Assembly: GCA_022709525.1 (NCBI GenBank)
Contig: JAKLIQ010000004.1
Coordinates: forward strand, 137,260 to 188,277
Direction: 5' to 3'
From: Candidatus Omnitrophota bacterium
GTDB lineage: Bacteria > Omnitrophota > Omnitrophia > Omnitrophales > Aquincolibacteriaceae
Length of the DNA: 51,018 bases
Positions 10,847-30,845 of the stretch are shown here, piece after piece. Position numbers and translations under genes: made by a program. Every line of letters begins with the position of its first letter. Position 1 is the stretch's first letter. The notes under the pieces are model-generated. The model had not been told where the DNA came from. It saw nothing but the letters and a program-made list of their open reading frames with translations, and did not search any database.

Positions 10847-12010
10847 ATGAAACGCTACCTTTTTAAAGACTCCTGGAAGCGGTGGCTGGCGGGCTGCTTT
10901 GACGCGGTCGGCAGCGTCCTTTTCTTTCCGTTCAGGCGGCTGCGTCACCCGCTCGATCTGGCAACTGTTAGAAAGATCCTTGTGATCCGATTGGATCATA
11001 TCGGGGATGTCGTCATGTCCCGGCCGGCGATCCGCGCACTGCATAAGAAATTTCCCCATGCCGAGATCGATTTTCTTGTCACGGAAGATATCGCTCCGCT
11101 TTTTGAAAGTTCCAGAGAGCTCCATAAAGTGATCACCGCCAAACATGGGTGGTTTTTAAGAAAATCCTCTTTCATCGAAAAATTTTCTGAATTCTGGAGG
11201 CTTGTCGGTCTTTTAAAATCGGGGTCCTACGACGTCGGCATTGATCTGCGGGGAGATATCCGCAACATCCTGCTCATGTTTTTGGCCGGTACACGCTACA
11301 CGATCGGGTACGGCATTACGGGAGGGGGATTCCTTTTGAATGAAAATGTGTCGTACGACCGGAACCTGCATCAGATTTGGTTAAACCTCGGTCTTTTAAG
11401 TTCGTTTTTTGTCGCGCAGGACAACAAACTCCTGCCATTTGAATATTCCGCCGAAAGAGCCCAGCAATTCTGGAAAAAGATCCAGACCCTTCCGCCCACG
11501 ACCTTGTTGCCGCGCGTCATGGTCCATATGGGCTCAGGGTACCCGTCCAAGCGCTGGCCCCTGGAAAATTTCAAGGCCCTCATCCAAAAGATCGACCAAG
11601 AGGCGCTTGCTCAAATTGTTCTGATCGGGACTGAGGCCGAAAAGGACGCCTCTCCGGACCTGAAGATCCGCTCCGAGCGGTTGATCGATCTGCGCGGCAA
11701 AACCGATCTTTCGGACCTGCCCGTTCTGCTGGACGTATGCGATATGTTCATCGGCAACGACTCCGGACCCGCTCATATTGCGGCGGCTCAAGGAGCTGAG
11801 GTTATTCTGCTAGCAAGCGGGACAAATGACATTCGTATCTGGCATCCCTGGACTGAACGCCTGCATATTCTGCAGCATGCTGTTCCGTGTTCTCCGTGCG
11901 AAGCCGAGATCTGTCCGGTGGAAGGACATCCTTGCGTGGAAGAGATCACGGTCGATCAAGCTTTTGATGCTTTTTCCTCGGTTCTCAGTCGCCTTCAAAA
12001 AAAATCCTGA
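10847..12010 (+). CDS. Heptosyltransferase family (GT9), WaaF/RfaF-like
   Basis: A GT-B enzyme of 387 residues. After a ~40-residue N-terminal extension come ILVIRLDHIGDVVMS (start of the GT9 domain) and RPAIRALHKKFP. The C-terminal half has HMGSGYPSKRWPLENF (the usual G-x-KRWP nucleotide-sugar site) and FIGNDSGPAHIAAA with the conserved D-SGP-H. A cysteine-rich tail (CSPCEAEICPVEGHPC) near the C-terminus is shared by many GT9 proteins. Known members add L,D-heptose to the inner core of lipopolysaccharide; the GmhB-like phosphatase at 17584 would fit heptose synthesis. The gap to the preceding gene is 4 bases. Confidence 0.87.
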   Translation: MKRYLFKDSWKRWLAGCFDAVGSVLFFPFRRLRHPLDLATVRKILVIRLDHIGDVVMSRPAIRALHKKFPHAEIDFLVTEDIAPLFESSRELHKVITAKHGWFLRKSSFIEKFSEFWRLVGLLKSGSYDVGIDLRGDIRNILLMFLAGTRYTIGYGITGGGFLLNENVSYDRNLHQIWLNLGLLSSFFVAQDNKLLPFEYSAERAQQFWKKIQTLPPTTLLPRVMVHMGSGYPSKRWPLENFKALIQKIDQEALAQIVLIGTEAEKDASPDLKIRSERLIDLRGKTDLSDLPVLLDVCDMFIGNDSGPAHIAAAQGAEVILLASGTNDIRIWHPWTERLHILQHAVPCSPCEAEICPVEGHPCVEEITVDQAFDAFSSVLSRLQKKS

Positions 12011-12048
12011 GCTATCATGGTCCTTTTCAATGAAAGAAGCGGGAAATC

Positions 12049-13194
12049 ATGACCTCCCAAGTCACCATTCATGAAAAAAAAATAAAGACTTGGGAGGTGC
12101 CACGTCACCGGGTCGGTCTCGATGTGAGAATGCTGCAGCATTCGGGGATCGGGACCTATCTCCGCGGATTGCTTGCCGGTTTTGAAACGCTATCGCTTAA
12201 AAAAGAACTTGCCCTCTTCGGCCCGGATGAAAAAGGCCGCGCCTTTTTCTCCGCTCCGATCTATTCTGTCCGGGAGCAGCTCCAGTATCCCGCGCGGGTC
12301 AGGCAATGTCTTTTATGGCACGCGCCGCATTACAATGTGCCGCTTTGGAAGGGGAAAACCAAACTTGTCGTCACGATCCATGACATCATTCACTGGATCT
12401 TCCGCGAACAGTTCCTGACGCCGCTTCAAACCGCCTACGCCGGATTCATGTTGAGGCGAGCAATCGTATCCGCCGATCATATTATCGCCGTCTCCCATCA
12501 TACAAAAAACGACCTCATCGAACATTTTCGCGCCCCGGAAGAAAAGATCACCGTGATCCACGAAGGAGTCGGCGAAAACCATAAGGAACTTCCTCCAAGC
12601 GAATTAAAATCCGCCTTTGAAAAAATCCGGACCAAATACGGCCTTCCAGAGGATTTCTTTCTCTATGTCGGCCTTATGAAACCACATAAAAATGTCCTGA
12701 TGCTGATGAAGATCTTCCGCAAACTCAAAGAAGAGGGGAAAGTTCGAAGCTCGCTCGTCCTGATCGGCAGAAAAGATAAAAAATATCCCCGCGGATACGA
12801 AGAATTGTCCGCCTTGAGCTCAACAAAAGATATCATTCATCTGTCAACGATCGATCCGGACGAATTGAAGGTCTTCTATAACCAAGCGCTTGCGCTGATC
12901 CACCCGTCGCTTTATGAAGGATTCGGCCTGACGCTCCTTGAGGCCATGCGATCGGGAACGCCGGTGCTTACGACCCATGCCTCTTCTATCCCGGAAGTGG
13001 TCGGAGATGCCGCTCTGCGCGTTAATGCTACCGATGAAGCCGCCATGCGGGATGCCATCATCCGGCTGGACCAGGATGGGTCATTGCGAGCATCGCTTCG
13101 GGAAAAAGGCCTTGCGCGGGCTGAAACATTCAGCTGGAACGAGACAGCCGCCAAAACGGCTGTCGTCTATGAAAAGGTGCTGGCCGAAACATGA
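12049..13194 (+). CDS. Glycosyltransferase family 4, mannosyltransferase-like
   Basis: A 381-residue GT-B glycosyltransferase. The domain begins at RVGLDVRMLQHSGIGTYLRGLL, with the acceptor-side G-x-G-TYL loop. The donor half has VHEGVGE, YVGLMKPHKNV and HPSLYEGFGLTLLEAM with the family's E-x7-E pattern. The first ~20 residues (MTSQVTIHEKKIKTW...) are not family-like and are encoded by a perfect 12-bp inverted repeat (12052-12098). The true start could therefore be a later GTG/ATG (12097, 12124 or 12130), and the ATG at 12049 has only a weak ribosome site. The 3' end is ATGA-coupled to the next GT4. Sugar specificity is unknown. Confidence 0.83.
   Translation: MTSQVTIHEKKIKTWEVPRHRVGLDVRMLQHSGIGTYLRGLLAGFETLSLKKELALFGPDEKGRAFFSAPIYSVREQLQYPARVRQCLLWHAPHYNVPLWKGKTKLVVTIHDIIHWIFREQFLTPLQTAYAGFMLRRAIVSADHIIAVSHHTKNDLIEHFRAPEEKITVIHEGVGENHKELPPSELKSAFEKIRTKYGLPEDFFLYVGLMKPHKNVLMLMKIFRKLKEEGKVRSSLVLIGRKDKKYPRGYEELSALSSTKDIIHLSTIDPDELKVFYNQALALIHPSLYEGFGLTLLEAMRSGTPVLTTHASSIPEVVGDAALRVNATDEAAMRDAIIRLDQDGSLRASLREKGLARAETFSWNETAAKTAVVYEKVLAET
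12052..12098. repeat. Perfect 12-bp inverted repeat (candidate mRNA hairpin) at a GT4 start
   Basis: ACCTCCCAAGTC at 12052-12063 is exactly complementary to GACTTGGGAGGT at 12087-12098, with a 23-base A-rich loop. The left arm follows directly after the ATG at 12049. The right arm contains GGGAGG, a Shine-Dalgarno-like sequence that the hairpin would hide. The loop also holds a tiny frame, ATG-AAA-AAA-AAA-TAA (12071-12085). No T-tract follows on either strand, so it does not look like an intrinsic terminator. The repeat is plain in the sequence; a role in translation control is inference. Confidence 0.7.
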
Positions 13195-30363: not shown

Positions 30364-30845
30364 TGAAATTCATCCTTTCGGAATTCTCGGAAGGGGTCCG
30401 GGTCCCCGTTGAAGGTTTCTACGATCCTAAAGCCATCGAGATCGAATTTCCGGACATGATCTATACGGCCTCCATCGAATTGCGCGGTACGGCCGAAAAA
30501 AGCGCCGGCACTTTCCGTTTCCAAGGAGTGCTCAAAACCGCCGTGAAGCGCACCTGCGGCAAGTGCCTGAAAGAGAAAAGCGAGCCCTTATCGTGCAATT
30601 TTGACTGGATCTTTGATGTTCTCGATAAAGAATCTATCGAGCCGCTTGAGAATGTTCGAGAGCTTTTGATCCTCGAGCATCCGCTCGTCTACCGGTGCAG
30701 GCCGGAATGCCGAGGTCTTTGTCCGCATTGCGGCACCGATCTCAATGATGGCTCTTGCAATTGTAAGGAAAATGGCTATCATGCTTCCCCAGTCATCATA
30801 AAAAAAGTGAAATCCAAGAAGGAGCGCAATCATGGCAAATCCTAA
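30363..30845 (+). CDS. DUF177 (YceD-family) protein
   Basis: A 160-residue member of the DUF177 family, whose genes almost always precede rpmF; family members have been linked to large-subunit rRNA maturation. The central VKRTCGKCLKEKSEPL (C-x2-C) and the C-terminal RCRPECRGLCPHCGTDLNDGSC segment show the family's cysteine pattern and may bind a metal. It starts one base inside coaD and overlaps rpmF by 14 bases. The rpmF ribosome site (AAGGAG) lies inside its last codons. Function in this organism is inferred from family and position. Confidence 0.88.
   Translation: MKFILSEFSEGVRVPVEGFYDPKAIEIEFPDMIYTASIELRGTAEKSAGTFRFQGVLKTAVKRTCGKCLKEKSEPLSCNFDWIFDVLDKESIEPLENVRELLILEHPLVYRCRPECRGLCPHCGTDLNDGSCNCKENGYHASPVIIKKVKSKKERNHGKS

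Follow-up and report, generated by a model that had tools for sequence, protein, structure and literature searches.

A hairpin at the start of a GT4 glycosyltransferase gene as one copy of a dispersed double-hairpin repeat of an Omnitrophota clade

The hairpin at the GT4 gene start

The window analyzed here is a stretch of 51,018 nucleotides from the genome (G000) of a Candidatus Omnitrophota bacterium. Within it, an upstream gene (10847..12010) is followed by the ORF of a GT4 glycosyltransferase (12049..13194; Glycos_transf_1, E 2.2e-27), and both lie on the + strand, to which all features of this locus refer. The original prediction described a perfect 12-bp hairpin with a 23-base A-rich loop directly after the ATG of this ORF, and its coordinates proved exact: the ATG at 12049-12051 is followed by the left arm ACCTCCCAAGTC (12052-12063), the loop (12064-12086) and the exactly matching right arm GACTTGGGAGGT (12087-12098). 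The short frame claimed for the loop, Met-Lys-Lys-Lys-stop, is likewise there (ATG-AAA-AAA-AAA-TAA). Folding of 12049-12101 as RNA gave -21.1 kcal/mol (z -5.45), a stability that none of 200 shuffles equaled.

The pairing taken alone is within chance: perfect 12-bp inverted repeats with loops of 3-40 bases number one in the whole window, and 60 Markov-1 simulations gave 0.33 on average. The reality of the hairpin at 12052-12098 comes instead from its membership in a family of repeats. An Rfam scan of the whole window returned no match, and an intrinsic terminator was rejected, the right arm having no T-run downstream.

A dispersed family of double hairpins

The search for further copies in the same genome, proposed with the original prediction, failed for the literal hairpin and succeeded for the structure. 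As an exact string the 47-base hairpin is unique in the genome (listed on both strands, since its arms are self-complementary). The arm pattern was discarded as a finder of other copies: apart from the two places in the window itself it yielded six with one mismatch, and its reversed control yielded four. When 25 genomes were searched by BLAST with positions 12005-12102 of the window, however, the own genome and each of the five congeners returned related sequences (E 3.5e-14 to 8.5e-7), and outside the genus E was 0.006 or worse. Of 49 class genomes, seven contain the pattern CCAAGTCRCCN{14,20}AAGACTTGG (five places in G000, 17 in G001, two in G002, eight in G004, two in G005, six in G016 and three in G025) and none contains its reversed control. 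A slightly stricter pattern run against 84,980 named species matched 27 stretches, 24 of them in six Omnitrophota MAGs, including fen_1321, RIFOXYB12_FULL_50_7 and AM-2014-D6_bin-627; the remaining three are single matches in unrelated bacteria, where by our own estimate a handful would be expected by chance, and Rickettsia is not listed among the matches.

Thirty-eight copies were aligned (alignment A1) and used to build the covariance model R1; they had been selected with a rough hairpin-A rule from sequences that carry the CCAAGTC pattern or match the window copy by BLAST (one of 39 was dropped). The model matched in 12 of 27 genomes of the family and in none of the other 15. There were 40 matches in the own genome, merging to 33 sites, and 71, 58, 93, 105 and 91 in the congeners G002, G005, G004, G001 and G003, respectively; a second genus carried 36 (G016), 9 (G023) and 24 (G025), and elsewhere in the family 27 (G021), 3 (G007) and 1 (G026) were counted. 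These counts are lower bounds with rough E-values, 150 candidates per genome having been scored, and matches exceed sites since some sites match on both strands.

The window copy, itself one of the 38 training rows of R1, matches the model over 12008..12101 with 78.1 bits (E 2.4e-15 in the window, 9.4e-14 in the genome), the core running from about 12014 to 12098. The reported hairpin is thus the 3′ half of a double hairpin of roughly 85 bp. Hairpin A, the 5′ module (12014..12053), has arms at 12014-12022 and 12045-12053 that pair imperfectly in this copy and covary across the family, as judged from alignment A1 and pair counts; hairpin B, the 3′ module (12052..12098), is the perfect 12-bp hairpin, identified on the same basis. 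Relative to the family, hairpin B of the window carries a G-C to T-A change at 12055/12095 and three extra outer pairs, the outermost of which reaches the start codon. Across the rows of A1 the copies consist of two adjoining hairpins of about 9 bp, separated by one base and closed by A-rich loops (for example GTCATGATT-loop-AATCATGAC for hairpin A and GTCCAAGTC-loop-GACTTGGGC for hairpin B), and the loops of hairpin B measure 21-23 nt. A second model match in the window (30739-30830) is weak (E 0.045) and was not accepted as a family copy.

Arrays of the same kind also hold modules with other stems, among them CCCAATT, CCTTGTC, CCTGGC and CCAAACT. In G016 (contigs C45, C53 and C63) and G025 (C71), tandem or clustered double hairpins spaced 80-86 bp apart run to the contig ends (loci L110, L112, L113 and L114), so that the full arrays are probably longer and interrupt assemblies. 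At L060, L061, L071, L073, L077 and L102, two or three hairpins are enclosed by an outer stem such as GGGGACAGGC...GCCTGTCCCC, giving larger composites.

The GT4 site is empty in five relatives

Comparison of the orthologous site (30 loci, two without the motif) revealed the same gene pair without the element in G001, G003, G004, G016 and G023; only these five count as empty sites, because G002, G005 and G025 carry other sequence before the GT4 gene. In all five the end of the upstream gene is similar and adjoins the GT4 gene directly, with a gap of 0 to 7 bases or an overlap as read from the DNA, whereas 86 bases, nearly all of them element, separate the stop at 12010 from the GTG at 12097..12099 in the window. 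Read from this GTG, the protein begins V-PRHRVGLDVRML and aligns with the relatives' M-PDYRLGLDIRML, M-KPHRIGLDIRML and M-TSHRVGLDIRML. The empty site and this alignment together indicate that the ATG at 12049..12051, which belongs to the 3′ arm of hairpin A and shares the frame of the GT4 gene, and the 16-residue N-terminal extension come from the insert. At 23 nt, the loop of hairpin B lets the frame of this ATG read through, and 34 of 54 B loops have the same length modulo 3. No direct repeat was found at the ends of the window copy (0 of 7 columns). The same arrangement, MTVQVTTKEKKVKTWAS, recurs at an SDR gene of the same genome (L175).

The suggestion in the original prediction of a small inserted element is thus borne out by a dispersed family and by a site that is empty in five relatives. 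It had also noted, fairly, that two starts are possible and, correctly, that the long form departs from the family in its first residues: the relatives' starts line up with GTG 12097, the ancestral position, and ATG 12049 was brought by the element.

Sister copies in proteins, at tRNA ends and at start codons

Nine of the 33 sites of the own genome, picked from the ORF listing, were translated, and five of them proved to lie in frame inside long ORFs. According to Pfam, the insert falls between the catalytic and anticodon-binding domains of a glutamyl-tRNA synthetase (gltX; named from 24 PDB sequence matches to glutamate-tRNA ligases and relatives), inside the HATPase_c domain of a histidine kinase, before the domains of a tyrosine recombinase, which we take to be XerC-like, and outside the domain of both a zinc-ribbon protein and an antiporter-type subunit. 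Rickettsia is the best-known source of palindromic inserts of this in-frame type. Filled and empty sites were compared across relatives for GT4 and gltX. The gltX insert measures 28 residues in G000 and 46 at the same place in G004, and is missing from G001, G002, G003, G005 and G016; it is flanked by GAGAAG/GGCAAG in G000 and by GAAAAG/GACAAG in G004, and the empty site of G001 and G005 has GGCAAG or GACAAG once. Direct repeats that may be target-site duplications also lie beside other copies (GACAAG/GACAAG at L156, GGCAAG/GGCAAG at L152 and GACAAG/GGCAAG at L154), those at gltX being imperfect. When the two filled gltX genes (L205 and L206) are compared, two other hairpins in G004 replace most of the second hairpin of G000 and add 18 residues.

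A tRNA gene lies no more than 40 bp from four of the 33 own sites (tRNA-Pro in three cases, tRNA-Phe in one), and five other tRNA genes in the same loci lie farther away. In 59 loci of other genomes, each of the three tRNA genes found adjoins a copy. Many copies at start codons show CGYCATR. Under a stricter rule and in the selected A1 set, 16 of 35 edge ATGs open a gene-like frame, compared with 123 of 1558 ATGs in the same loci; under a looser rule applied to the 33 own sites, start-codon placement was not significant (6 of 33 versus 3.4 expected, p 0.11).

Stems that change and stay paired

The stems vary between copies yet stay paired. In A1, where the B stem is largely fixed by how the copies were found, 91.4% of cells pair and 40 cells are changed on both sides, versus 16.1 after shuffling and 0-8 in slid structures. 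In a second alignment (A2) of 37 own-genome matches, which is fitted to the model structure and contains four of the training copies and, for five sites, matches on both strands, there are 153 double-changed cells (17 of 18 pairs), versus 50.4 after shuffling and 11-32 in slid structures.

At the 5′ end of tRNA-Pro(TGG), for which the flanks of G000, G003, G004 and G005 were compared, upstream hairpins occur in G000, G004 and G005, and their distal arms (ACCCCGATG, ATCCCGATC and CTCCGATG, respectively) are complementary to the start of the tRNA, the second and third by way of G-T wobbles; in G003 the near flank is the same but the hairpin arm is lacking. At the 3′ end of tRNA-Phe, the stems read CCAAGTTT/AAACTTGG in G000, CCAAATTTTTT/AAAAAATTTGG in G001 and CCCATC/GATGGG in G002, their first bases being the tRNA's own. 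The tRNA-Pro and tRNA-Phe stems thus keep their pairing at orthologous sites through sequence change, one arm being partly host DNA. Template switching in replication can create and repair such stems (PMC8794818), and either template switching or selection may keep the arms of the element complementary.

Interpretation and alternative readings

Family membership, covarying stems, the empty site, the alignment of the GT4 start with GTG 12097 and sister copies in ORFs, at tRNA ends and at start codons are all direct observations. The reading that best accounts for them, to which we assign a probability of about 0.88, is that the feature belongs to a non-autonomous and dispersed palindromic repeat of REP/RPE-like kind, built as a double hairpin and found in an Omnitrophota clade, one copy of which inserted where two glycan genes meet, at the GT4 start codon. 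The element would move as a small mobile or self-templating unit. At landing, the base of the stem could consist of host DNA on one side and of its complement in the opposite arm, as with the GGT of the start region against ACC in the window copy; the host-matched arm may date from the insertion itself or from a later repair of the palindrome by template switching. Translation of GT4 would then begin at the element's ATG, adding 16 residues, or, with lower efficiency, at GTG 12097, which lies partly in the stem. From the sequence, the N-terminal extension and perhaps lower initiation are best read as by-products of the element, whose effect on GT4 translation may be incidental, and a dedicated regulatory role would be unnecessary.

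How such a repeat spreads bears on the first alternative, that it is a classical REP moved by a clade-encoded RAYT (Y1) transposase. Y1 transposase matches of the RAYT type occur in four of the six genomes of the genus, and one RAYT locus, in G002 (L093), has a family model match on either side, although the RAYT's own palindrome differs; at one Y1 locus of G004 (L096) a model match lies about 1.2 kb away. No Y1 transposase was found, however, in G003 (82% complete) or G005, despite their 91 and 58 R1 matches, and the palindromes of the RAYT in G000 and G002 have a CACACC..GGTGTG core of their own. The GTAG tag next to the stem is present in 0 of 38 copies. We regard mobilization by a RAYT of the clade as unlikely. 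Neither a mobilizer nor a parent insertion sequence was found in the clade loci examined. The RAYT-type gene itself (L095, 1936-2334, in G000 C34, and L093 in G002 C27) is accompanied by ACCCTGTACACACC in G000 and by ACACACC.GGTGTGT in G002, and a like palindrome in L065 marks a second REP family. A perfect 44-bp palindrome with 22-bp arms and no loop also lies near Y1 transposase genes in G004 (L118, 5285-5328, contig C147).

A tentative idea, to which we would give less than even odds, is that the hairpin family spreads or persists with no dedicated transposase: stems would be rewritten from a host flank such as a tRNA end or start codon, the other arm being copied as its reverse complement by template switching, so that stems diverge and stay paired while modules stack, swap and enter proteins in frame.

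The strong covariation, and the orthologous tRNA-Phe hairpins that keep pairing through changes, would also be expected of a structural RNA family kept by selection in each transcript, for example as processing or stability hairpins, rather than of an insertion family. This reading is quite improbable, given that the family is clade-restricted, that the window copy is missing from five relatives, that copies lie in frame in gltX and a HATPase domain, and that at the gltX site of G004 other hairpins replace most of one.

It is unlikely that the hairpin serves the GT4 gene as a dedicated switch. Such a cis-regulatory switch, in which the hairpin sequesters a Shine-Dalgarno sequence or start codon and opens on a signal, had been put forward in the original prediction, and the stable hairpin at the start codon, with GTG 12097 overlapping the stem and ATG 12049 abutting it, speaks for it, as do other family copies at start codons. 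Conservation at orthologous gene starts, expected of a cis-regulatory RNA, was not found: relatives keeping the protein start without the pairing had been named beforehand as the outcome that would count against a switch, and five relatives show just this. Sister copies, moreover, are found within ORFs, at tRNA ends and both before and after gene starts, and the window lacks any Rfam match. Sequestration of a Shine-Dalgarno sequence was rejected, as no ATG, GTG or TTG starts 5-10 nt downstream of the GGGAGG at 12092-12097, which GTG 12097 overlaps, and GGGAGG is present in just 2 of 54 family copies; a leader tetrapeptide was rejected as well, an ATG..stop frame occurring in 7 of 54 loops and being no conserved family feature. 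We hold the switch to be very improbable. Chance or an assembly artefact, for which the 0.33 such repeats expected in the window and the position of some sister arrays at contig ends might be cited, has next to no probability against a model match of E 2.4e-15 and a filled gltX site common to two separate genomes, G000 and G004.

If the feature is a copy of the dispersed repeat, covariation among such copies need not mean regulatory RNA, and annotators should be warned that start codons and N-termini near copies can derive from an insert. Omnitrophota would then offer a second system of this type besides Rickettsia, and its filled, empty and rebuilt orthologous sites in sequenced relatives make two questions testable: by what route small palindromes are dispersed if they show no transposase of their own, and what preserves the complementarity of their arms as the sequence changes.

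Relation to known palindromic elements

No report of such repeats in Omnitrophota was found among the titles and abstracts listed in searches of the PMC open-access library. By analogy, the closest kinds appear to be the Rickettsia palindromic elements (RPEs) and the REPs. Like the RPEs, as described in excerpts of PMC10969869 and PMC2229807, the element is a small, dispersed, clade-specific palindrome found between genes, in frame in conserved protein genes and at RNA genes, a likeness of description. It is present in many copies in one clade and has entered conserved proteins in frame, in gltX with empty sites in relatives and inside HATPase_c, and three more ORFs carry in-frame copies seen without a filled/empty comparison. 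The RPEs are given in the same excerpts as elements of about 105-150 bp with long stem-loops, whereas the element consists of two or more hairpins of about 9 bp with A-rich loops of 21-23 nt (hairpin B, A1), its stems covary between copies, its copies also lie at start codons and tRNA ends, and it belongs to a different phylum.

The REP superfamily, in the excerpts of PMC3733652, shares short stems with complementary changes, dimers and clusters, and both intergenic and intragenic units; the CGTC class described there has no associated transposase. REP loops are given there as 2-20 nt for the GTAG class and 4-5 nt for the CGTC class, both differing from the longer loops of the element, where hairpin B has 21-23 nt. 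Since GTAG is missing, CGTC mostly so (present in 9 of 38 left ends), and the loops are longer, the element is filed outside the named families. Double-hairpin and repetitive hairpin elements of Allomyces and sponge mitochondria (excerpts of PMC2800124) likewise form adjacent hairpins, dispersed, often near tRNA genes and clade-restricted, with mobility inferred, but those are mitochondrial and the resemblance is one of description. Bacterial MITEs resemble the element in being non-autonomous, about 100 bp long and palindromic, with direct repeats beside some copies; unlike theirs, its ends are not a fixed terminal repeat, because stem bases differ between copies, and no parent insertion sequence accompanies it in the loci looked at. 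Judged against the descriptions of the named kinds, the element is a variant of dispersed palindromic repeats outside any named family, and what is new here are its long A-rich loops, two-hairpin modules and host-matched stems.
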